Position numbers and translations under genes: made by a program. A stretch of DNA of 64,000 nucleotides from assembly GCA_024207135.1 (NCBI GenBank), contig CP042428.1, positions 4,030,001 through 4,094,000 on the forward strand, given 5' to 3'. Below, piece by piece: positions 8,467 through 22,295 of the stretch. Numbering within the stretch: position 1 is the stretch's first letter; the number at the start of each line of letters is the position of its first letter. This DNA is from Arthrobacter sp. C2 (GTDB lineage Bacteria; Actinomycetota; Actinomycetes; Actinomycetales; Micrococcaceae). The notes under the pieces were generated by a model, which saw only the letters and a program-made list of their open reading frames with translations, was not told where the DNA came from and did not search any database.

Positions 8467-9746
8467 GCGCGCCGGCCCCAACCCTGCCCGCCAAGCTCCG
8501 GCCGCTCGCCCCGGTGAGCTGGAAGACCCCGATCATGCTTTCGGTCATCGGCCTGCTTTCACTGGTGTTCTTCGGCTTCGCCGGATCCGAGCAGACCGCG
8601 ACCTTCGGCATCTCCACCGGCGGCGACGTCTTCACCCTGCCGGACCTGGTGGTCCCGGGCATCGCCACCGGAATCGTGCTGGGCCTGGGGATGTGCGTGC
8701 TGGCCGGGTACTCGATCTTCCTGGCCCGCGAGCACCGCCCGACCCCGGGATGGGTGCCCATGGTCTTTGCCGCGCTGTTCATCTTCGCGTTCCTGGTCTG
8801 GGTCGTCTCAGGGGCCCGCACCCCGCAGATCTCCCTGGCCGGCCTGATCGCCGGCTCGGTCACCCTGGCCGTCCCGCTGGTCTTCGGTTCCCTGTCCGGG
8901 GTGCTGTGCGAGCGCGCCGGCGTGGTCAACATCGCCATCGAGGGGCAGCTGCTCGGCGGCGCGTTCAGCGCCGCGATCATCGCCTCGGTCACCGGCAGCC
9001 CGATGCTGGGACTGCTGGCCGCCGCCGTGGCCGGTGCCCTGGTCTCGGTGGTGCTGGCGATCTTCTCCATCAAGTACCTGGTCAACCAGATCATCGTCGG
9101 CGTGGTGCTCAACGTGCTGGTCTCGGGCATCACCGGATTCCTCTTCACCACCGTGATGCAGGAAGACCCGGAGCTCTACAACTCCCCGGGCCGCCTGCCG
9201 GTCATCGACATCCCGGGGCTCTCGGCCATCCCGATCATCGGCCCGATCCTGTTCCGCCAGTCCATCGTGGGCTACCTGATGTATATCGCGGTTGCCGCGG
9301 TGTGGATCGGGCTGTTCAAGACCCGCTGGGGCCTGCGCGTGCGCGCCGTGGGCGAGCACCCCAAGGCCGCCGACACCCTGGGCATCAAGGTCAACACCAC
9401 CCGCTTCGTCAACGTGGTCCTCGGCGGGGCCATCGCCGGCATCGGCGGATCCTTCTTCACCCTGGTCGCCATCGACTCCTTCACCAAGGAAATCTCCGGC
9501 GGCCGCGGATTCATCGCCCTGGCCGCGGTGATCTTCGGACGCTGGAACCCGATCGGTGCCTTCTTCGCCGCACTGCTCTTCGGCTTCGCCGACAACCTGC
9601 AGTCGATCCTCACCATCATCGGCACCCCGGTGCCCAGCCAGTTCATGGCCATGCTGCCCTACGTCGTCACGGTCTTTGCCGTGGCCGGGTTGGTTGGCAA
9701 GTCCCGGGCGCCCGCCGCCGACGGCGAACCGTACGTCAAGGGCTAG
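8463..9746 (+). CDS. Nucleoside ABC transporter permease 2
   Basis: Second BPD_transp_2 permease, 427 residues from ATG 8463, which overlaps the TGA of permease 1 (ATGA). It has an N-terminal group of hydrophobic segments absent from the shortest family members. The core motifs are LCERAGVVNIAIEGQ, VGVVLNVL and RAVGEHPKAADTLGIKV. GAGGTGGC just upstream of the ATG can act as RBS. Together with the first permease it completes a BmpA/NupABC-like importer. Cytidine deaminase follows after 14 nt in the same direction. Confidence 0.92.
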   Translation: MSAPAPTLPAKLRPLAPVSWKTPIMLSVIGLLSLVFFGFAGSEQTATFGISTGGDVFTLPDLVVPGIATGIVLGLGMCVLAGYSIFLAREHRPTPGWVPMVFAALFIFAFLVWVVSGARTPQISLAGLIAGSVTLAVPLVFGSLSGVLCERAGVVNIAIEGQLLGGAFSAAIIASVTGSPMLGLLAAAVAGALVSVVLAIFSIKYLVNQIIVGVVLNVLVSGITGFLFTTVMQEDPELYNSPGRLPVIDIPGLSAIPIIGPILFRQSIVGYLMYIAVAAVWIGLFKTRWGLRVRAVGEHPKAADTLGIKVNTTRFVNVVLGGAIAGIGGSFFTLVAIDSFTKEISGGRGFIALAAVIFGRWNPIGAFFAALLFGFADNLQSILTIIGTPVPSQFMAMLPYVVTVFAVAGLVGKSRAPAADGEPYVKG

Positions 9747-12812: not shown

Positions 12813-13643
12813 TCAAGAGAACTGCTTGCCCTTGGCCTGCAGGTGGTTCAGGAATCGTCGGGAGGACCCTGCGCTGTAGGCACGGACCAGGGTCTTCTCC
12901 TCGACTAGGTTCCCGTCCACGTCTTGGAAGTCCCCTGACAGCTGCGCCAGTGCCGAGCCCAGGGCGCGGACGTGGTCGGCTGCGGAGTTCGGGGTCCGAT
13001 TACCGCCGCCCATCAGGGTGGCGAGGGTTTCCCGGTCCCGTCGCCCAGCCCGTAGTCGATGCTCACCGCCATGGGCGCGAGGCTGTATCCCCTTGAAAGT
13101 TCCGGCAGAAAGTTCCCTCTCGGAGTGCGTCGTCACGAGCGTGGCCTCGATGTCGATGATCAGCAGGTCCAGCGAGGTGGCCCGGGCTGCGGGGTTCCGT
13201 TTCCCGGCGGACTGCCAGATGCGTGACCGCATCTGGCACATGAGCGCGGTGAATCCGTCCTCGAAGGCCGTAGATTGCTCGGCGGCGCGCTCCACAAAAC
13301 GGGAGACCGTCGCGTTCGAGGGTGCCGGGTCGAACAGCTCCGGGCTGTTGCGCAGTACGTCCAGGTCCGAGACGCGTTCCCCACCGCCAGCGAGCATGGT
13401 GTTCAGGCATCCGAGGATCCATCCGGGGTGTTGGGCGGCCTGTTTGGGGACGAACCGGGAGAAGTGTTCGTCGGCCAGGCTACCGAATCCGGTCCCGTCG
13501 AGGAAGGAGGCCACGGTGTCCGGCCCGGTGGCGGAGATCTGCGACTGGCCGGTCGGGGCTGCGGGAACGGCGGGGAAACACGTGTATTTAGCCTCGAGAG
13601 GATGAGCCCTGATCTGGTGTGAAATGTTGTGTGGTAACTCCAT
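12813..13643 (-). pseudogene. Degenerate IS1380-family transposase fragment
   Basis: The 276-codon frame contains the IS1380-type DDE-like region DIEATLVTTHSE and the later motif NRTPNSAADHVRAL. Between them the reading frame is wrong: after GTFK the expected family wording (RGYS, then IDYGLGDGTG) is found in another frame, and the original frame resumes at ETLATLM. A pair of compensating frameshifts therefore separates the motifs. The protein also ends after KGKQFS, well short of the ~450 residues of active family members. No terminal inverted repeats were identified. It is read as a dead insertion-sequence remnant that marks the left part of the island. Confidence 0.75.
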
Positions 13644-13836
13644 TTTCCCAGCCCAGCTCAGCTTTTCCTCGTTGAATACGCTTATTGACGGGCTTTCTCA
13701 TGAAGATGCCGAGCTAGAGCTACAGAATCGAATGCGGGAATTCCGGAAATCCCCATTCAAACGGGCCATGCCTGAGATAAACGGACATGTACTAACGGGT
13801 TAACATAGTTTGCCATGCGGCTTGATAGTGATTACA

Positions 13837-13866
13837 GTCTCATGTGTCAGGGCAAGAATATGAGAC
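13837..13866 (+). promoter_or_regulatory. Candidate antiterminator hairpin in the island operon leader
   Basis: GTCTCAT (13837-13843) is perfectly complementary to ATGAGAC (13860-13866); a G-T and a T-A pair extend it inward. The right arm overlaps bases 13860-13866 of the left arm of the adjacent terminator stem, so the two structures cannot form together. This is the arrangement of a terminator/antiterminator switch. The operon encodes a GlpP-family protein, which is the obvious candidate to stabilise this alternative fold. Confidence 0.6.
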
Positions 13867-13898
13867 CTCCTGTTGGAGGTTTTATTCTGCCCTTTTTT
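13850..13898 (+). terminator. Leader (attenuator) terminator of the island operon
   Basis: Intrinsic terminator in the 5' leader, upstream of the MFS gene start at 13954. GGGCA (13850-13854) pairs with TGCCC (13888-13892), GAATA (13856-13860) with TATTC (13883-13887), and the eight bases 13863-13870 with 13875-13882 around a TGTT loop, giving 18 pairs with two small bulges. Six T residues follow directly (13893-13898). It lies in the same direction as the operon and there is no upstream plus-strand gene it could serve. Candidate -10 hexamers TAACAT (13801) and TAGTTT (13806) precede it, without a clear -35. Confidence 0.8.
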
Positions 13899-13953
13899 CG
13901 TGGAACTAAGTCTTCTCCAACGGCGACGTTTCACGAGAGAAAAGGTTAGGCCG

Positions 13954-15387
13954 TTGTCAAATATAGTTCTACGCGGTGTGCATGACGTTGTGTCCTACAT
14001 CGACGCGCGCCCCAGGATTGCAGGCCGTGCCGGCCTGATCTGGTGGCTCGCGCTTAGTGGTTTGTTCTTGGACGCCTTCTCCAACTCCGCCTTGAGCGCC
14101 GGGTTGGGTCCGATGACTAAGGACCTCGAGCTCAGCGCCATGCAGGTGGCGCTACTCACCTCACTGGCCTCTTGGGTCGCCATCGTATTCAACCCGATCG
14201 GTGGCTGGCTCGCCGATAAATACGGTCGAATCCCACCGTTGGTAATTGCCAAGCTCCTAGCGCTGATCGGTGCCGGCCTGGCCGCATTCGCACCGGGTTT
14301 CGAAATGGTCCTGATCGGCCGCTTCTTCGTTGGAGCCGCCTACGGCATCGACTTCGCCATTGCGATGGCATTGTTGGCCGAATTCACCCCGGCCCGGTTC
14401 AAGAGCCGCCTCAACACCTGGCAGGGTGTCTGGTACACCGCCGTTAGCTCCAACCTGATCCTGGCCATCATGTTCTACAACATGGATGTTGGACCCGCGA
14501 TCTGGCGCTATTCCGTCGGAACCGCGGGTATCGTCGCCTTGGCCCTGTTCGTCGTCCAGCTCCGCTACCTCGTTGAAAGCCCGACCTGGGCGGCACGCAA
14601 GGGGCAGCTGGAACGGGCAGCACTGTCCATGACGAAGATCTACAAGGAACCGTTTGTCGCAGCATCGACCGAGGACCGCGCACCGATCCTGAACCAGGCC
14701 ACCAAGGGTTTCGCCAATGTGGCCCTGATCTTCAGGGGAATCTACCTGCCCCGCACGATCCTGGCAGGTACTGTGCAAATGGCACAGTCGATCCAGTACT
14801 TTGCCGTGGGTTGGTACCTGCCTATCATCAGCCTGACCCTCTTTGGACAGGATTTTGTCGTCGCCACGATTGGTGCCCTGGTGTTCAACCTCTTCGGCGT
14901 CGTCGGCGGTTTCATGTCCCCGAAGATCGGCAAGTACTTTGGTCTGCGCAAGGCATCCGCCATCGGCTTCGGTGCCGTGTTCATCATGCTGGTCATCATG
15001 GGCCTGTCCTACGAGACCATGCCGATCGCGCTGGCGTTCCTGGTGCCGTCACTGTTCATCCTCTTCCACTCCGGCGGACCGGGAGCCAACGGCAAGAGCC
15101 TTTCAACGTTGTCCTTCCGCAGCGAATTGCGCGCAGGCGCCAACGGCATCATCGGTGCCATCGGCAGCACCGGTGCGGCACTGGGCCTGCTGGTCTTCCC
15201 CATCCTGAAGGAAGATCTGGGGCTGGGTCCGACCTTCCTGATCCTTTCCAGCGTTCCGCTGATCGCCTGCATTATTTGCCTGGTCATCAAATGGGACCCG
15301 ACTCGTGCTGCCTTGAGCCCGGATGAAGAGACCAACGCACCTCAGTTCAAGAGCGATCTGGCGCACCACAACGCGCTGGTCAAATAA
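13954..15387 (+). CDS. MFS transporter, first gene of the island operon
   Basis: A 477-residue major facilitator with about twelve hydrophobic segments, likely a proton symporter bringing in the substrate of the operon. The loop 2-3 motif is GGWLADKYGR and a second family region is VESPTWAARKG, as in sugar-porter and MHS-like carriers. The TTG at 13954 is chosen: AGAGAAAAGG lies 7-8 nt upstream, and the earlier in-frame ATG (13873) falls inside the leader terminator hairpin. GTG 13978 is an alternative start. FGGY kinase follows after 18 nt. The substrate is not evident; the kinase and GlpD-like dehydrogenase suggest a polyol or a glycerol derivative. Confidence 0.85.
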   Translation: MSNIVLRGVHDVVSYIDARPRIAGRAGLIWWLALSGLFLDAFSNSALSAGLGPMTKDLELSAMQVALLTSLASWVAIVFNPIGGWLADKYGRIPPLVIAKLLALIGAGLAAFAPGFEMVLIGRFFVGAAYGIDFAIAMALLAEFTPARFKSRLNTWQGVWYTAVSSNLILAIMFYNMDVGPAIWRYSVGTAGIVALALFVVQLRYLVESPTWAARKGQLERAALSMTKIYKEPFVAASTEDRAPILNQATKGFANVALIFRGIYLPRTILAGTVQMAQSIQYFAVGWYLPIISLTLFGQDFVVATIGALVFNLFGVVGGFMSPKIGKYFGLRKASAIGFGAVFIMLVIMGLSYETMPIALAFLVPSLFILFHSGGPGANGKSLSTLSFRSELRAGANGIIGAIGSTGAALGLLVFPILKEDLGLGPTFLILSSVPLIACIICLVIKWDPTRAALSPDEETNAPQFKSDLAHHNALVK

Positions 15388-15405: not shown

Positions 15406-16911
15406 ATGAAGACTCCTGCCATCCTGGCTATTGATGAAGGAACCACCGGAACCCGCGCAGCATGGGTCGACGCCGCAGGTGCGGTGCACGCTATTGAATA
15501 CCGAGCGCTTGCGGTCGACAGTCCGCGCAGCGGTGTCGTTACGCAGGACGCCAACGATATCCTGCGCAAGACCGTCGAGGTCGTCCGCGCCGTCGTCGCC
15601 CGGGCTGAATCAGCCGGTGTTGAACTGGTGGCAATGGCCATCGCCACCCAAAGGGCCACCACGGTCCTCTGGGACACGGTGAGCGGCCAGGCACTCGTGC
15701 CGGCCATGGTGTGGCAGGACAACCGCTACGCGGATGAACTCGCGGAGCTGGGGCACGACTGGAATGACCGGTTGCTGGCCTCGGTGGGACGGCCCACGGG
15801 CGTACGCTCCCCGTACCTGTGGGCCGCCCACCAACTCCGCGAGTCACCCGAAGTGGCCGATGCCCACCGCGAGGGCCGGCTTGGATTCGGAACCATTGAA
15901 ACCTGGCTGCTCTGGAACCTCACCGCGGAACGGTCCTACGTGGCCACACCCACTAACGCCACCTCGGCCGGGGCTTATGTGTTCTCCAAACACGAATACG
16001 AGCTCGACTGGATTCGCGCGTTGGGTTTCCCCGAAGAACTGTTGCCCGAGCTGAAGCAGGATGCCGAACTGCTCGGTCACACCGATCCGGAATTGCTCGG
16101 GGTGCGGATTCCCGTGTTGGCTGCGCTTGGTGACCAGCATGCCAGCACCATCGGACTGGGATGCATCAGCTCGGGCCAGGCCATGTGCGGTCACGGCACC
16201 GGCAGCTTCGTTGACCTGCTGACCGGGCCCACCCCTCCACAAAACCCCGGCCTGTACGACGGCACGCTGACCATGACGGGCTGGCGCAGCAGCAACCAGA
16301 CTGTCTACGCGGTGGAAACCTTCACCCCGACCACGGGTTCGGCACTCGACTGGGTCTGCAACGCCCTGGGCTGGTTCGAAAACTCCAGGAAAATCAGTGA
16401 GTTGGCCGGTACTGTCCAGGGCTCCAACGGCGTGACGTTCGTTCCCAGCCTCACGGGCATCCGCACCCCCGTCGTTGAACCGGGGTTGCGTTCGTCACTG
16501 ACCGGACTGTCCATGGCCACCACCCGCGCGGAGGTTGCATACGCCGTGCTTGAGGGGATCGCCCAATCGGTGGCAACTAGCGTCGAGGCCAACGCCAGGG
16601 TCGCCGGCATCGGCGTCACCGAGATCGTCGTCGGCGGGGGCCTTTCGGGCAGCGATCCGCTGATCCAAATGCAGGCGGATCTCACCGGCATCCCGATGCT
16701 TCGGCTGCCGGGCACCGAATTCGCGACGCTGCGCGGGGCCGCCTTCCTGGCTGGTTCAAACGGCGTGCTCTGGGATTCCTTGCCGGAAGCCGTCGCAGCC
16801 CTCGGCGGCGGAAGAGTATTCCAACCCCAAATCAGCGATGACCAACGCAGGGACCTGCGCGAGAGCTGGAAGGCGCGCATTGGCGCCGAACTGGAACTGG
16901 TCGACGCCTGA
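15406..16911 (+). CDS. FGGY-family carbohydrate kinase, glycerol-kinase-like
   Basis: A 501-residue ATP-dependent kinase of the FGGY fold. The N-terminal phosphate-binding motif is DEGTTGTR (~10-17) and the second-domain motifs are GDQHAST (~242-248), GHGTGSF and GGGLSGSDPLIQ. Compared with E. coli glycerol kinase, the glycerol ligands Arg83, Trp103 and the catalytic Asp (~243) are kept, but the motif reads QRATT, not QRETT, so Glu84, which hydrogen-bonds glycerol, is Ala. That makes a substrate other than plain glycerol likely, for example another polyol or glycerol derivative. ATG 15406 follows an AAAAGG element. Its product would feed the GlpD-like dehydrogenase next door. Confidence 0.85.
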   Translation: MKTPAILAIDEGTTGTRAAWVDAAGAVHAIEYRALAVDSPRSGVVTQDANDILRKTVEVVRAVVARAESAGVELVAMAIATQRATTVLWDTVSGQALVPAMVWQDNRYADELAELGHDWNDRLLASVGRPTGVRSPYLWAAHQLRESPEVADAHREGRLGFGTIETWLLWNLTAERSYVATPTNATSAGAYVFSKHEYELDWIRALGFPEELLPELKQDAELLGHTDPELLGVRIPVLAALGDQHASTIGLGCISSGQAMCGHGTGSFVDLLTGPTPPQNPGLYDGTLTMTGWRSSNQTVYAVETFTPTTGSALDWVCNALGWFENSRKISELAGTVQGSNGVTFVPSLTGIRTPVVEPGLRSSLTGLSMATTRAEVAYAVLEGIAQSVATSVEANARVAGIGVTEIVVGGGLSGSDPLIQMQADLTGIPMLRLPGTEFATLRGAAFLAGSNGVLWDSLPEAVAALGGGRVFQPQISDDQRRDLRESWKARIGAELELVDA

Positions 16912-16964: not shown

Positions 16965-18635
16965 ATGATTTCCATGCCATCCCGCAAACCCAAGGCCAAC
17001 CGGGCCAAGATGGTTTCCGACACACCACTATCCCTGGGACGCGATGAGCAGATCGAACGGCTGGGAAGCGAACGATTCGACATGATCGTCGTCGGCGGCG
17101 GCGTTACCGGCGCTTACACGGCTATGGATGCCGCATTGCGCGGCTACAAGGTAGCACTGCTGGAAAAGGACGATTTCGCCTCCGGGACCTCGTCAAAATC
17201 CTCCAAGATGATCCATGGCGGACTGCGCTACATCGAGCAGGGCAACCTGCCGCTCGTACGCCATTCCCTGCTTGAACGTCAGCGTTTGCGCAAAAACGCA
17301 CAACACTTGGTGCAGCGGCTGCCCTTCCTTTTCCCAGTTCTCTCCACCAACGGGGTCTTCGACCGCCGGCTGGCCGCCGGATTCGAATCGCTGTTGTGGA
17401 CCTACGATCTGGCCGGGGGCTGGCGCGAGGGCGTGCTGCACCAAAAATTGACCAAAAACGAGGTGCTTTCGCACTGTCCCACCTTCAAGGCCGAAAACCT
17501 CGACGGCGGTTTCATGTACTACGACGCCCGCGCCGACGACGCCCGACTGACGCTCACGCTGGCCCGCACCGCGGCCTTCCACGGCGCGGTGCTGCTCAAC
17601 GGAGCCAAGGTCACCGACGTGACCCGGCAGAACGGCAAGGTCAATGGGGTCGTCGCGGAGATCGACGGTCACGAGGTGCGTGCTTCGGCCCGGTCAGTCA
17701 TCATCTCCACCGGTGTTTGGCTGCGCGATTGGACCGGTGCGGGCAAGGACGTCGACGCCCCCTCGATCCGTCCGGCCAAGGGCGTGCACATAGCGGTCCC
17801 CTGGACCAAGATCCGCAACGACTGCACCGTCACCATCCCGGTCCCGGGACGCAACAGGCGCGCCACCATCACCCGATGGGGCGACACCTCCTACCTGGGA
17901 ACCACAGACGAGGACTATGAAGGCAACCTCGACGACGTCAATTGCACCCGCGAGGAAATGGACTTCCTGCTCGATGGTGCGCGCACGGCGTTGAACATCG
18001 ATATCGAACCCGAAGACGTCGTGGGCAGCATGGGAGGCTGCCGGCCCCTGGTCGCGCCGCCCGGCGGCAAGACCACTGAGGTCAAGCGCAACCATGAGAT
18101 CCGCACGGATCCCGACGGGCTGGTCACAGTGGTGGGCGGCAAGCTCACCACCTCGCGCCACATGGCCGAGCAGACCGTCGACGAGGCACAAAAAGTGCTC
18201 GGGGAACGACGCCGCTGCCACACGAAATCCGCATACCTGCTGGGGGCCGCGGGCTACGACGCCGAAGCCATCGTCGCCTCGGGTGGGCTTTCCTCGCACC
18301 TCGGCGAGCGCTACGGGACCGAGGCCAGATTCGTCACCGACATCCTTGCTGATGACCCGGGCCTCGGCAAGCCGATCGTCGAAGGGTTGCCCTACCTTGA
18401 AGCGGAGGTCGTGTATGCGGCCCGCCACGAGATGGCACGCAGTGTCGACGACATTCTGTCACGCCGGACCCGCGCCCGCATGATGGCACGCGATGCCTCG
18501 GCAGCCGCGGCCGAACGCGTCGGGGAACTCTTGATGAAAGAACTTGACCTTTCGGCCTTCGCAGTCGAAGAGCAAGTTGCAGCATACCGAAACCACACCG
18601 CGCACGAACGCGCCGTCCTGATGGGAGAAAAATAA
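16965..18635 (+). CDS. GlpD-like FAD-dependent glycerol-3-phosphate (polyol-phosphate) dehydrogenase
   Basis: A 556-residue flavoprotein of the aerobic GlpD family, which passes electrons to quinone at the membrane. It has the N-terminal FAD motif MIVVGGGVTGA (~40-50), the GlpD signature SSKSSKMIHGGLRYIEQG, a middle substrate domain and the C-terminal GlpD domain (~430-540). The N-terminal extension of ~35 residues is basic. ATG 16965 follows AAGAGAGAC. By family it oxidises glycerol 3-phosphate to dihydroxyacetone phosphate, but EryB-type homologues oxidise erythritol phosphate. The altered kinase pocket leaves the physiological substrate open. The next gene starts 2 nt after the stop. Confidence 0.88.
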   Translation: MISMPSRKPKANRAKMVSDTPLSLGRDEQIERLGSERFDMIVVGGGVTGAYTAMDAALRGYKVALLEKDDFASGTSSKSSKMIHGGLRYIEQGNLPLVRHSLLERQRLRKNAQHLVQRLPFLFPVLSTNGVFDRRLAAGFESLLWTYDLAGGWREGVLHQKLTKNEVLSHCPTFKAENLDGGFMYYDARADDARLTLTLARTAAFHGAVLLNGAKVTDVTRQNGKVNGVVAEIDGHEVRASARSVIISTGVWLRDWTGAGKDVDAPSIRPAKGVHIAVPWTKIRNDCTVTIPVPGRNRRATITRWGDTSYLGTTDEDYEGNLDDVNCTREEMDFLLDGARTALNIDIEPEDVVGSMGGCRPLVAPPGGKTTEVKRNHEIRTDPDGLVTVVGGKLTTSRHMAEQTVDEAQKVLGERRRCHTKSAYLLGAAGYDAEAIVASGGLSSHLGERYGTEARFVTDILADDPGLGKPIVEGLPYLEAEVVYAARHEMARSVDDILSRRTRARMMARDASAAAAERVGELLMKELDLSAFAVEEQVAAYRNHTAHERAVLMGEK

Positions 18636-18637
18636 TT

Positions 18638-20161
18638 ATGATCAGCAAAGAGGCAGTAAAACGCGGATACAACCGAGGCAACTACACCGTGGGTGCACCA
18701 AGCCAGCCTGGCTGGGCCGCCAACGCGGGAGAAATCTCGGGGGACTCGTTCTTCGGCACCGAGGCCGTGGCTGTCCCACAGGCGGTGCTGGATCTGCTGG
18801 CTGCCGCCGCGGACTCTGTCACCACCGATGCCGCCGCGGTCCGCGAAGGCACCCGTGATTGGTGGGCGGCATCGATGATCGCCGAAACCAGCGGACGCCC
18901 CGTTGCCCCTGAATCCGTAATAGTCTCGGTTTCCAGCACCGAACAAGTGCAGGCCGTCATGCGCATCTCCGATGCCCACAACATCCCCGTCACGGTCTCC
19001 GCCGGACGCAGCAACGTCACCGGCGCGGCACTGCCCCTGGCCGGTGGAATCGTGCTCGATATCTGCGGCATGGACAAGTTCCTCGGGTTCGATGAGCAAA
19101 GCCAGATAATCGAGGTCGAGGCCGGTGTTTTCGGCGACATCTTCGAGGAAAAGATCCAGGCCGAATACGGCATGACCTTGGGCCACTGGCCCTCCTCCTA
19201 CGCCATCAGCACCGTTGGCGGCTGGGTTGCCTGCCGTGGCGCCGGGCAGCTCTCCACCCGCTACGGCAAGATCGAAGACATGGTCTTCGGCATGGACGTG
19301 GTTCTGGCCAACGGGGATCTGGTGACCCTTGGCAACAGCTCCCGTGCAGCGGTGGGCCCGGACCTGCTTCAGATGTTCATCGGTTCGGAAGGAACCCTGG
19401 GTGTTGTCACCACCATCCGCCTGCAGCTGCATCGGCTGCCGGACCACGGTCGAGCCATCGCCTATGGGTTCGAGACCTTTGCCGACGGGCTCGAGGCGTG
19501 CCGACAGATCATGCAGCAGGGGGCAACCCCGGCGGCCCTGCGCCTGTACGACAACCTGGAAAGCGGCGTCCAGTTCAACCTGCCCGACACCAACGTACTG
19601 TTGGTTGCCGACGAGGGAGCAAAGGAATCCGTCGAAGCGGGACTGGAAATCAGTGAGCGTGTTTGCGCCGAGACCGGCATCAAGCTTGACGACGAGGCGA
19701 TCTTCGAGCGTTGGCTCGACACCCGGTACCTGACCGGCAAGAGCGCCGAAGGCTTCAAGAGCAGCCCCGGCCTGGTAGCGGACACCCTGGAAATGGTCGG
19801 CCGCTGGAAGGACCTGCCGGCCATCTACGATGAGGTCGTCGCCGCGGTGAACGCGATCCCGGGAACACTGGCCGGATCGGCACACCAGTCGCACGCCTAC
19901 GTCGATGGCGCCTGCCTCTACTTCTCGATCCGAGGAGACATCGCGGTCGAGGAACGCGCTACCTGGTACCGTTCCGCTTGGGACGCGGCGAACGAGGTCA
20001 TCATCAGGCACGGCGCTACGCTGAGCCACCACCACGGGGTCGGGCTGCTGCGAGCCCCGTACATGGAGGAGTCGCTCGGCGGCGGGTTCCAGGTATTGCG
20101 GGCGGTCAAGACCGCGTTGGATCCTAAGAATCTGCTGAACCCCGGCAAACTGGGACTCTAA
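18638..20161 (+). CDS. FAD-linked oxidase of the alkyl-dihydroxyacetone-phosphate synthase type
   Basis: A 507-residue vanillyl-alcohol-oxidase-family flavoprotein. The FAD domain contains the segment SAGRSNVTGAALP and GSEGTLGVVT; the C-terminal part has SHHHGVG (~463-468), the His-rich motif characteristic of alkylglycerone-phosphate synthases, and ends DPKNLLNPGK. In eukaryotes that enzyme swaps the acyl of acyl-DHAP for an alkyl group; bacterial relatives in catabolic operons are mostly uncharacterised. Its position directly after a GlpD-like gene fits a role acting on a ketose phosphate or a glyceryl ether-like compound, but this is inference. ATG 18638 is preceded by GGGAGAA. Confidence 0.82.
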   Translation: MISKEAVKRGYNRGNYTVGAPSQPGWAANAGEISGDSFFGTEAVAVPQAVLDLLAAAADSVTTDAAAVREGTRDWWAASMIAETSGRPVAPESVIVSVSSTEQVQAVMRISDAHNIPVTVSAGRSNVTGAALPLAGGIVLDICGMDKFLGFDEQSQIIEVEAGVFGDIFEEKIQAEYGMTLGHWPSSYAISTVGGWVACRGAGQLSTRYGKIEDMVFGMDVVLANGDLVTLGNSSRAAVGPDLLQMFIGSEGTLGVVTTIRLQLHRLPDHGRAIAYGFETFADGLEACRQIMQQGATPAALRLYDNLESGVQFNLPDTNVLLVADEGAKESVEAGLEISERVCAETGIKLDDEAIFERWLDTRYLTGKSAEGFKSSPGLVADTLEMVGRWKDLPAIYDEVVAAVNAIPGTLAGSAHQSHAYVDGACLYFSIRGDIAVEERATWYRSAWDAANEVIIRHGATLSHHHGVGLLRAPYMEESLGGGFQVLRAVKTALDPKNLLNPGKLGL

Positions 20162-20221: not shown

Positions 20222-20806
20222 ATGAGCACCTTGCCCCAACATCTCAGCGAAGCGCTGACCCGCAACCCGGTGATCGCTTCCGTGTTCGGACCCCAAGCCG
20301 TGGGGCACTTCCTAGGATCCGGGTGCAAGGTGTGCATTCTAGCAAATGTGGGGTTGCACGAATTGCATGGGCTGCTCGCCGCCCTGTCCGGAGCAGGCAA
20401 GTTCACTTTCGTGAACGTCGATGCCTGCTCCGGACTCGGTCAGGACCGCGGAGCCGTCGAATACCTCAAGAGTATCGGGGTACAAGGTGTGGTGAGCACC
20501 AAGACGGCATTGATCCAGCGGGCCAACTCCACAGGCATGGCGACAATCCACAAGGTCTTTGTCACTGACCGTTCGAACCTTCCACGCAGCGCTTCGGCCG
20601 TAGATCAAAGCAAACCAGACCTTGTCCAAATCATGCCTTCGCCCGTGATCTCCCACCTGGAGCCCGGAGAGCTTCGTAGTCTTTCACCGTTCATTGCCTC
20701 GGGCTTCATCAAGTCCGCGCCGGATGTCGCGTCCCTATTGAGTGCGGGCGCCATCGGCGTTTCTTCTAGCAGCCCGGAATTGTGGGACCTGGCCGGGCGC
20801 ACCTAA
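20222..20806 (+). CDS. glpP: GlpP-family glycerol-3-phosphate-responsive antiterminator
   Basis: A 194-residue protein matching the G3P-antiterminator (GlpP) family in length and wording: FVNVDACSGLGQD, a GVVSTKTALIQRA segment, the PDLVQIMPSPV strand, IASGFIKSAPDVASLL and GAIGVSSSSPELW. Bacillus subtilis GlpP is 192 residues with the same order of motifs in a TIM-barrel-like fold. In Bacillus it binds the leader mRNA of glp genes when glycerol 3-phosphate is present and prevents termination. The leader of this operon has exactly such a terminator with a competing hairpin (13837-13898). ATG 20222 follows AGAGGA. A direct metabolic role of the barrel is a less likely alternative. Confidence 0.85.
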   Translation: MSTLPQHLSEALTRNPVIASVFGPQAVGHFLGSGCKVCILANVGLHELHGLLAALSGAGKFTFVNVDACSGLGQDRGAVEYLKSIGVQGVVSTKTALIQRANSTGMATIHKVFVTDRSNLPRSASAVDQSKPDLVQIMPSPVISHLEPGELRSLSPFIASGFIKSAPDVASLLSAGAIGVSSSSPELWDLAGRT

Positions 20807-20842: not shown

Positions 20843-21148
20843 ATGTCACAAAGCTATTTCCAAGTCATCGCACATTACTTCCCTAAGCCGGAGGAAGTCC
20901 AGAACGTGCTGGAGTTACTCGGCCAGTTGGCCATCGAGAGCCGAAAAGAAGAGGCAAACATGTCCTATGGCTTCTTCCGAGGTGCCGAGGACCCGGCGCA
21001 CATCGTGATCCTTGAGCGGTACCGCGATGCGGCAGGGTTTGCCGCGCACCGCGAGTACGAACACTTCCAGCGCATCGGTCTGGGACAGATCATTCCCAAA
21101 CTTTCCGATCGCCGCATCGAGTCGTACGAAGGCAGCACCGATGCCTAA
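20843..21148 (+). CDS. Small ABM-domain (antibiotic biosynthesis monooxygenase-like) protein
   Basis: A 101-residue protein with the dimeric alpha/beta-barrel pattern: an N-terminal strand YFQVIAHYF, a helix with repeated Leu (NVLELLGQLAIESRKE), the strand SYGFFRGAED, then IVILERYRDAAGFAAHREYEHF, which is the LsrG/YgiN-like core. Family members act on quinones, autoinducer-2 phosphate or small carbonyl compounds without cofactors. Its presence in a polyol-type operon suggests it handles a reactive keto-sugar phosphate, which is speculation. ATG 20843 is preferred over the upstream TTG (20828), which is too close to GAGG. The last bases overlap the ATG of the alcohol dehydrogenase. Confidence 0.7.
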   Translation: MSQSYFQVIAHYFPKPEEVQNVLELLGQLAIESRKEEANMSYGFFRGAEDPAHIVILERYRDAAGFAAHREYEHFQRIGLGQIIPKLSDRRIESYEGSTDA

Positions 21149-22295
21149 CAACCCGGCGGAAACCGCAACCCACATGCATAGCGCCGTGCTGCACGCCAGC
21201 GGCGCCGCACGGCCCTACGCGACGAGCAGGCCGCTGACTCTGGAACACTTGGAAATACCGGCCCCGCGCGCCGGGGAAGTCCTGGTGAAGATCGAACGCG
21301 CCAGCCTCTGCCACTCCGATCTGTCGGTCATCAACGGCTCCAGGCCGCGACCGCTGCCGATGGTGCTGGGCCACGAGGCAAGCGGCACCATTGCCGGTGT
21401 TGGCCCCGGAATGACCGACGTGCCGATGGGGTCTAAAGTCGTGCTGGTTTTCGTGCCCAGTTGCGGAGACTGCCGCGCCTGCGCCGCGGGGCGCCCTGCC
21501 CTATGTCACCGTGCGGCCGAATCCAACGGAACCGGCGACCTGCTCCACGGCCCGGCGGCGCTCAGCGGCGCCGACGGCACCCGCATCAACCACCATCTAG
21601 GCGTCTCCGCATTTTCACAGTACGCGGTGGTGGCGCGCGAGTCGGTGGTGGTGATCGAGGACGACGTGCCCTTCGACGTTGCGGCGATGTTCGGCTGCGC
21701 AGCATTGACCGGCATCGGTGCCGTACTCAACACCGCCAAAGTACTGCCGAGGCAATCGGTGATCGTCTTTGGCTTGGGCGCCGTGGGATTGATGTCGGTG
21801 ATGGCGGCCGCGCAAATCCCGGGTACCACGGTCATCGCCATCGACCCGTTGGCGGAGAAGCAGGCGCTGGCGCTCAAGTGCGGGGCCCACGTGGCAGGAT
21901 CCCCGGCGGAGGCAGCCGCGCTGGTGGCCGCCCATGCCGGAGACGGTGTCGATGTTGCGGTGGAAGCCGTGGGCAGCGCCCGCGTCATCGAAAACTGTTT
22001 GGGGTTGCTGACCCGCGGCGGCGCCCTTGTCTCGGTGGGCTTGCCGCACCCGGACCAAAGGCTCGATGTCCAGGCACTGCAATTCGCCGGAATGGGCAAA
22101 CGCCTGCTGGGCTCCTACATGGGCGATGCCAACCCCGCCATTGACATCCCCGCCTATGTCGCCATGTGGCGGGCAGGAAGGCTTCCCGTGGAGTTGCTGC
22201 ACACGGACACCAAGCCGGCGGACGAGCTCAACGAGGGTTTGGACGCCTTGGCCGACGGATTGGTGGTGCGCAGGCTCTTTGACTTCGGAAGCTAG
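21141..22295 (+). CDS. Zinc-dependent alcohol dehydrogenase, class III-like
   Basis: A 384-residue medium-chain dehydrogenase. The catalytic-zinc motifs are ASLCHSDLS (~Cys 56) and GHEASG; the structural-zinc cysteines appear in SCGDCRACAAGRPALCH; the NAD-binding motif is GLGAVGL followed by an acidic residue in AIDPLAEK, favouring NAD(H). ATG 21141 overlaps the stop of the ABM gene by 8 nt, so translation is probably coupled. It is the last gene of the island operon, ending 22 nt before the right 66-bp repeat. It may oxidise an alcohol precursor or reduce an aldehyde released by the upstream enzymes. Confidence 0.88.
   Translation: MPNNPAETATHMHSAVLHASGAARPYATSRPLTLEHLEIPAPRAGEVLVKIERASLCHSDLSVINGSRPRPLPMVLGHEASGTIAGVGPGMTDVPMGSKVVLVFVPSCGDCRACAAGRPALCHRAAESNGTGDLLHGPAALSGADGTRINHHLGVSAFSQYAVVARESVVVIEDDVPFDVAAMFGCAALTGIGAVLNTAKVLPRQSVIVFGLGAVGLMSVMAAAQIPGTTVIAIDPLAEKQALALKCGAHVAGSPAEAAALVAAHAGDGVDVAVEAVGSARVIENCLGLLTRGGALVSVGLPHPDQRLDVQALQFAGMGKRLLGSYMGDANPAIDIPAYVAMWRAGRLPVELLHTDTKPADELNEGLDALADGLVVRRLFDFGS

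Follow-up and report, generated by a model that had tools for sequence, protein, structure and literature searches.

When an operon carries the gene for a GlpP-family protein, does its leader act as a switch worked by that protein, and by what means? The question is raised by the window (the whole stretch of DNA analysed, 64,000 nucleotides), in which an intrinsic terminator stands in front of genes for an MFS transporter, an FGGY kinase, a GlpD-like dehydrogenase, a GlcD-like FAD oxidase, GlpP and a zinc alcohol dehydrogenase, in that order:

13954 to 15387, plus strand: MFS transporter (domain match), with its start proposed at TTG 13954
15406 to 16911, plus strand: FGGY carbohydrate kinase, glycerol-kinase-like and under the GlpK cut-off (domain/family match)
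16965 to 18635, plus strand: GlpD-like FAD-dependent dehydrogenase (domain/family match)
18638 to 20161, plus strand: FAD-linked oxidase, GlcD-like (domain/family match)
20222 to 20806, plus strand: GlpP-family protein, PF04309 (E 6.8e-45; solved relatives 3kts and 1vkf)
21012 to 22295, plus strand: zinc alcohol dehydrogenase, which in many related loci comes next after GlpP; its start is uncertain

The preliminary description had placed a GlpP-family gene in the same operon, and the PF04309 match agrees. Aligned over its full length with Bacillota members, the protein shares 21–29% identity with them, its changes including HxD to NxD and GG to SG. For the MFS gene, TTG 13954 is a more probable start than GTG 13990, which lies further in, because relatives share the N-terminus that the earlier codon gives. 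The explanation put forward here, to which a probability of about 0.7 is given as a whole, is that the leader is a conditional terminator controlled by GlpP; we infer the binding of GlpP, its ligand and the outcome, and the rest is drawn from sequence.

Leader terminator and predicted promoter

The terminator consists of a bulged hairpin, P1, and a run of T:

13850 to 13892, plus strand: P1, hairpin GGGCA...TGCCC, stem of the proposed conditional terminator (fold, conservation, and 66.4 bits with model R1)
13862 to 13867, plus strand: GAGACC box on the 5' side of the P1 stem, putative GlpP contact (all 36 leaders have AGA[CT] immediately 5' of the tip)
13870 to 13873, plus strand: CTGT at the apex, better conserved among the leaders than any other part of P1
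13893 to 13898, plus strand: T6 tract TTTTTT ending the intrinsic terminator (sequence)

The terminator at 13850–13898 is real. The minimum-energy fold of 13800–13960, a calculation that the preliminary description had proposed, contains P1 with 5 + 2 + 11 = 18 pairs, and none of 200 shuffles was as stable (z −5.24, to which a second hairpin in the stretch contributes), confirming the 18 pairs plus six T described earlier. A simple terminator scan of 13600–14100 listed no terminator, a miss that we think is due to the bulges. At gathering score, Rfam gave only a tRNA in the window and nothing for the leader, whose best weak match was SorX at 19.3 bits against a cut-off of 46.6.

The structure alignment of P1 (A2) and the model built on it (R1) hold 17 distinct rows, all actinobacterial. 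Within A2, 89.4% of the cells at P1 pairs are paired, and covariation reaches 0.264 compared with 0.190 for shuffled and at most 0.136 for slid alignments, with 0 of 500 shuffles as high. Both sides change in only 2 of the 13 P1 pairs, no more than in shuffles of these 17 rows. Better conservation of the 5' arm over the 3' arm was considered and set aside, the difference over 17 rows (0.76 vs 0.73) being negligible; in the alignment of eight close leaders, invariant columns are far more numerous in the 5' arm. By eye, the 5' arm often carries two AGA[CT] boxes about 7–10 nt apart (in L027, L115, L065 and others), as would suit a multimer on the growing RNA.

What may be transcribed ahead of P1 depends on the promoter:

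13810 to 13838, plus strand: predicted promoter TTGCCA-17-TACAGT (promoter scan), with the −10 box at 13833–13838
13837 to 13843, plus strand: GTCTCAT, the earlier 'antiterminator arm', overlapping the −10 box and probably untranscribed

According to the preliminary description, GTCTCAT forms half of an RNA switch. This would be a classic RNA antiterminator, in which 13837–13843 pairs with 13860–13866 and the helix is stabilised by GlpP. The two stretches are exactly complementary over seven bases (GTCTCAT with ATGAGAC), the complementarity of promoter-proximal DNA to the P1 5' arm exceeds that of shuffles in the window (p 0.006), and GTCTCA is kept in four of eight close leaders (the window, L013, L014 and L024). 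A passage in a review likewise has GlpP binding 'the antiterminator' (PMC7430163). The arm, however, overlaps a −10 box whose pattern T-A-n-n-n-T is invariant in all eight aligned leaders. Because this box is predicted at 13833–13838 and is invariant in those leaders, transcription is expected to start near 13845, and because of that expected start 13837–13843 is probably promoter DNA that lies outside the RNA. GTCTCA is also changed in L015, L017 and L025, with ATCTCA in L016. Elsewhere the complementarity gives p 0.059 in L118, 0.069 in L013 and 0.082 in L120, at other places in L118 and L120. The Fisher p for 12 lineages, the window included, is 0.06 and comes mainly from the window.

The main point in favour of the earlier arm is a second promoter match, TTAACA-18-GATAGT at 13800–13829, which scores 9 of 12 matches, equal to the 9 of 12 of TTGCCA-17-TACAGT, and would start transcription near 13836. 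On visual comparison, L013 does not retain this match. A transcription start 3' of 13837 had been named as evidence against the arm, and the predicted start near 13845 probably amounts to just that. In the leaders compared, and given the predicted start, no conserved antiterminator helix was found that overlaps the terminator and is transcribed before it. The arm was rejected as an antiterminator on three grounds, namely its overlap with the conserved −10 box, its position before the predicted start and the loss of the match in distant relatives, and the antiterminator explanation is considered highly improbable.

Control by GlpP at the terminator itself would proceed differently. With a transcription start near 13845, P1 would be the first element made. 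Without inducer, P1 would fold and RNA polymerase would stop at 13893–13898. GlpP made from the operon, together with a phosphorylated substrate, would bind the 5' arm near the GAGACC box as it emerges and block its pairing, so that the operon would be read; an RNA antiterminator helix would be unnecessary.

Occurrence of the leader and its gene set

Thirty-six leaders were collected from actinobacteria and proteobacteria. All 36 have, before the MFS gene, a hairpin with AGA[CT] in its 5' arm and CTG[TC] at its tip; the first apex pattern missed four of them and was then widened by one base. MFS, FGGY kinase, GlpD, FAD oxidase and GlpP follow in order after 34 of the 36, the exceptions being L121 and the Ensifer leader L123. 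The claim of a conditional-looking terminator leading an operon that encodes its own GlpP is upheld by P1 staying with the same genes in these 34. Other carriers of the gene set are Nocardia, Cupriavidus, Burkholderia and further actinobacteria with large genomes. The preliminary description had spoken of an apparent, self-contained GlpP island in Micrococcaceae; the family named is too narrow, as other actinobacteria and proteobacteria have the set as well.

Several loci depart from the common arrangement. In L121 (9130–10659, actinobacterial) the leader is kept and the start of MFS is joined to the last part of the FAD oxidase, which looks like the result of an internal loss. A plasmid of Ensifer canadensis (L123 8467–10001, L122 1–3049) retains the leader, MFS, the kinase and a shortened GlpD match, with no GlpP match listed for it among the 40 plasmid records found. 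In Burkholderia arboris (L019, 4485–7185), one of the 34, the MFS match is split into residues 1–49 and 36–465, about 1.1 kb apart, and the leader and GlpP are kept. The record L013, titled Sporosarcina beigongshangi, has an Arthrobacter-type operon, and its label looks wrong. Two loci were dropped: L100, whose contig ends inside the kinase and hence lacks the leader, and L070, a second C. metallidurans record with the same hairpin as L020. A Rhodococcus plasmid MFS, considered as a further member, belongs to a different gene cluster, and the E. coli locus L124 gave no R1 match at E up to 1.

The occurrence is patchy. GlpP matches were found in 12 of 395 genomes of the family sample (five close, at 65–100% identity and including the window's own, and seven distant, at 26–34%), in none of the 14 congeners listed, in 4 of 394 genomes of the class sample, own included, and in 29 of 396 of the phylum sample, which are the own genome and 28 distant ones. 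One genus of large-genome actinobacteria, taken to be Streptomyces, had matches in 21 of 343 genomes (16 close, 5 distant only) and one further family in 9 of 150, 8 of them close. The search for held-out lineages added none: apart from the genome of the window, an order-level sample had no such locus (0 of 286 at E 1e-30), and viral contigs had none either. This distribution fits transfer, a reading based on the 14 listed congeners without a GlpP match, the lower G+C of the operon (0.60–0.64 vs 0.65–0.72 in the flanks) and an IS1380-type transposase fragment upstream of the promoter (12813–13643, minus strand), which covers only positions 4–234 of the 419 in its model.

Within its own genome, the switch looks private to the operon. 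The genome has one GlpP, and a scan with R1, in which 150 of 2407 first-look candidates were scored, gave one strong match at 66.4 bits and a next best of 19.4; among the scored candidates no strong P1 match besides the operon's own was found. A canonical GlpK (743 bits, over the cut-off) lies at 714 kb, and GlpD-like genes lie at 712 kb and 1,016 kb. The operon kinase reaches 318.8 bits against the GlpK cut-off of 590, so the genes behind the leader do not qualify as the canonical glycerol genes. Because its kinase is under the cut-off and a canonical GlpK is found elsewhere, the operon is unlikely to be the main route for glycerol. We think that the inducer would be glycerol 3-phosphate or, more likely, the phosphorylated product of the operon's own kinase; the operon may be of a sugar-alcohol type, its signal being a sugar-alcohol phosphate other than glycerol 3-phosphate. 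A literature search on the substrate of the operon returned nothing usable.

The Ensifer plasmid, with its leader and no GlpP found in the record, is what might suggest that P1 has no connection with GlpP and either attenuates constitutively or terminates a unit further upstream. Such a role is very unlikely, since P1 lies about 5 nt after the predicted start and before a GlpP-encoding set, with invariant bases, in two phyla.

Pairing of the hairpin tip with element D

Conditional termination under GlpP would leave a second set of elements to the read-through RNA:

13913 to 13930, plus strand: element D; it is complementary to the P1 apex, and it overlaps the strand that pairs with the ribosome-binding/start region (duplex energies, permutations)
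13940 to 13945, plus strand: Shine-Dalgarno-like AAAAGG (sequence)

There, the freed tip of P1 would pair with D just upstream of the ribosome-binding site, with which D would otherwise pair, and the pairing of apex and D would open that site. As D is transcribed after the P1 terminator (it starts 14 nt past the T tract in the window and 6 nt past it in L016), it cannot steer termination.

The pairing of the apex with D is established by sequence. In 12 of 12 lineages the best partner of the 17 nt around CTGT is D, which starts 44–33 nt before the start codon and, across 21 leaders, lies within 45–20 nt of it. Duplex energies were taken from 22 of the 36 leaders, and folding and fraction calculations from 21; the permutation sets of 12 and 9 lineages were chosen by the authors with one or few leaders per lineage, and the lineages are related. 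Over 12 lineages the duplexes of each apex with its own D sum to −249.0 kcal/mol against −187.2 kcal/mol for permuted tips, with 1 permutation of 100,000 as good; over 9 lineages, 5 of 100,000 were as good. Against shuffled D the Fisher values are 1.7e-15 (12 lineages) and 5e-13 (9 lineages). Control segments, with 50,000 permutations each, gave 6934 for the reversed apex, 45107 for the lower 5' arm, 34057 for the lower 3' arm and 14530 for an upstream segment over 12 lineages, and 2978, 45720, 33810 and 9247, respectively, over 9. Because the reversed apex gives 2978 of 50,000 with 9 lineages, composition may account for a little of the effect.

Examples are the Cupriavidus tip TCTGTAAGA with D TCTTACAGA and the Ensifer tip ATCTGCAAGA with D TCTTGCAGAT. 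Three proteobacterial leaders give p 0.001 (L018), 0.0015 (L123) and 0.002 (L019). The pairing in the window is weak, with p 0.062 against shuffled D and 0.016 against shuffled apex, ranking 6 and 8 of 22.

The other partner of D is found by the same kind of comparison. Pairing of the D neighbourhood with the ribosome-binding/start region, own versus swapped, was equalled in 2 of 100,000 permutations (Fisher 6e-7), with p below 0.05 in only 5 of the 12 lineages and 0.30 in the window. When the RNA ends at D, the mean fraction with apex and D paired over 21 leaders is 0.12 with the 5' arm free and 0.96 with it blocked, to imitate a bound protein; in the Ensifer leader L123 this pairing dominates even with the arm free (0.99). 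Blocking the 5' arm did not raise access to the start region in full-length equilibrium folding of the 21 leaders (0.353 to 0.352), so that opening of the ribosome site by such a block at equilibrium was rejected. Forcing the pairing of apex and D raises access from 0.35 to 0.44, in 17 of the 21 leaders. A translational role of D is thus a guess; it would perhaps be kinetic, which is conceivable because D is made before the ribosome site. In Cupriavidus campinensis (L018) the ribosome-binding sequence, GGAGACC, about 35 nt downstream of the start of D, resembles the putative GlpP box.

The leaders of the two phyla differ in their T tracts. One follows P1 in 29 of the 36 leaders, which are 29 of the 32 actinobacterial and 0 of the 4 proteobacterial ones, yet the latter keep P1, the pairing of apex and D, and a paired ribosome site. 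These leaders, with P1 and D and without the T tract, fit a translational role best. They also speak for an explanation in which GlpP acts on P1 to affect the stability or translation of the mRNA, with termination only a side effect. The report that GlpP stabilises glpD mRNA too, in a passage of the review (PMC7430163) and in a 1996 title cited in the reference lists of other sources, points the same way. Against it stand the T tracts of the window and of nearly all actinobacterial leaders, and the Ensifer case, in which the operon is shortened and lacks a GlpP match in the plasmid records found; it is regarded as unlikely. A three-way RNA switch can be proposed tentatively, as a possibility that we regard with some doubt: apex, D and ribosome site would compete, GlpP would control translation as well as termination, and in proteobacteria translation alone, with a signal that is perhaps another sugar-alcohol phosphate.

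Relation to known systems of leader control

To our knowledge, GlpP has been studied mainly in Bacillus. Accounts of its action differ. A passage on B. subtilis states that GlpP with glycerol 3-phosphate disrupts a terminator that directly follows the promoter (PMC9604022), and one in the review states that GlpP binds the antiterminator and stabilises glpD mRNA (PMC7430163). A paper whose title describes GlpP binding the glpD leader mRNA is cited in the reference list of a further source (PMC3997798). No title on GlpP leaders in actinobacteria was among the matches listed in a literature search outside whose coverage most subscription journals lie, and where passages of a Streptomyces glycerol paper mention GlpP, they do so only for B. 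subtilis (PMC9732521).

GlpP antitermination in B. subtilis (glpD, glpFK, glpTQ) shares with the present locus a PF04309 protein, a terminator directly 3' of the promoter (predicted here) and glycerol-kinase-like and GlpD-like genes. Here, in contrast, GlpP lies inside the operon it would control, there is one strong leader match, the kinase is under the GlpK cut-off, and the CTGT tip and the ribosome site share D as a pairing partner. By eye, D was not seen in the Bacillota leaders read. GAGAC occurs in five of five Bacillota leaders at glpP loci (Cytobacillus twice, Planococcus, Paenibacillus and Peptoclostridium; B. subtilis itself was absent), a motif chosen post hoc with a shuffle chance of 0.14–0.30 in each, and on visual inspection it is placed 5' of, or inside, a hairpin resembling a terminator. 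R1, searched at E up to 1, found none of these boxes, nor the Cupriavidus, Burkholderia and Ensifer leaders; its sole weak match, in L069 (16.6 bits, 8723–8764), does not cover the GAGAC at 8663.

SacY is grouped with LicT among antiterminator RNA systems, and TRAP serves as a comparison for RNA binding by recognition of repeats. Unlike in LicT and SacY systems, no conserved upstream antiterminator helix was found here, and with the promoter as predicted there is no space for such a helix. With HutP and TRAP a possible likeness lies in the AGA[CT] boxes that recur along the 5' arm in several leaders; the protein family is different and the binding putative. Shared with LicT-type antiterminators (for LicT, a passage in PMC7430163) are a catabolic operon and protein-dependent read-through of a leader terminator, which is proposed here. 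HutP binds clusters of NAG repeats, according to another passage there (PMC7430163).

The idea with which the analysis began is partly supported: the mechanism has been replaced and the broad idea stands. About a dozen lineages that have one hairpin in common, together with a co-encoded regulator and a covarying partner, make a compact natural alignment for finding RNA contacts. The same leaders allow testing whether GlpP has two points of action, termination and the access of ribosomes. The known kind to which the leader would belong is GlpP-type conditional termination, and what appears new is that the regulator is encoded in the gene set itself, which two phyla share, and that a covarying element D, undescribed in the literature searched, is joined to it.
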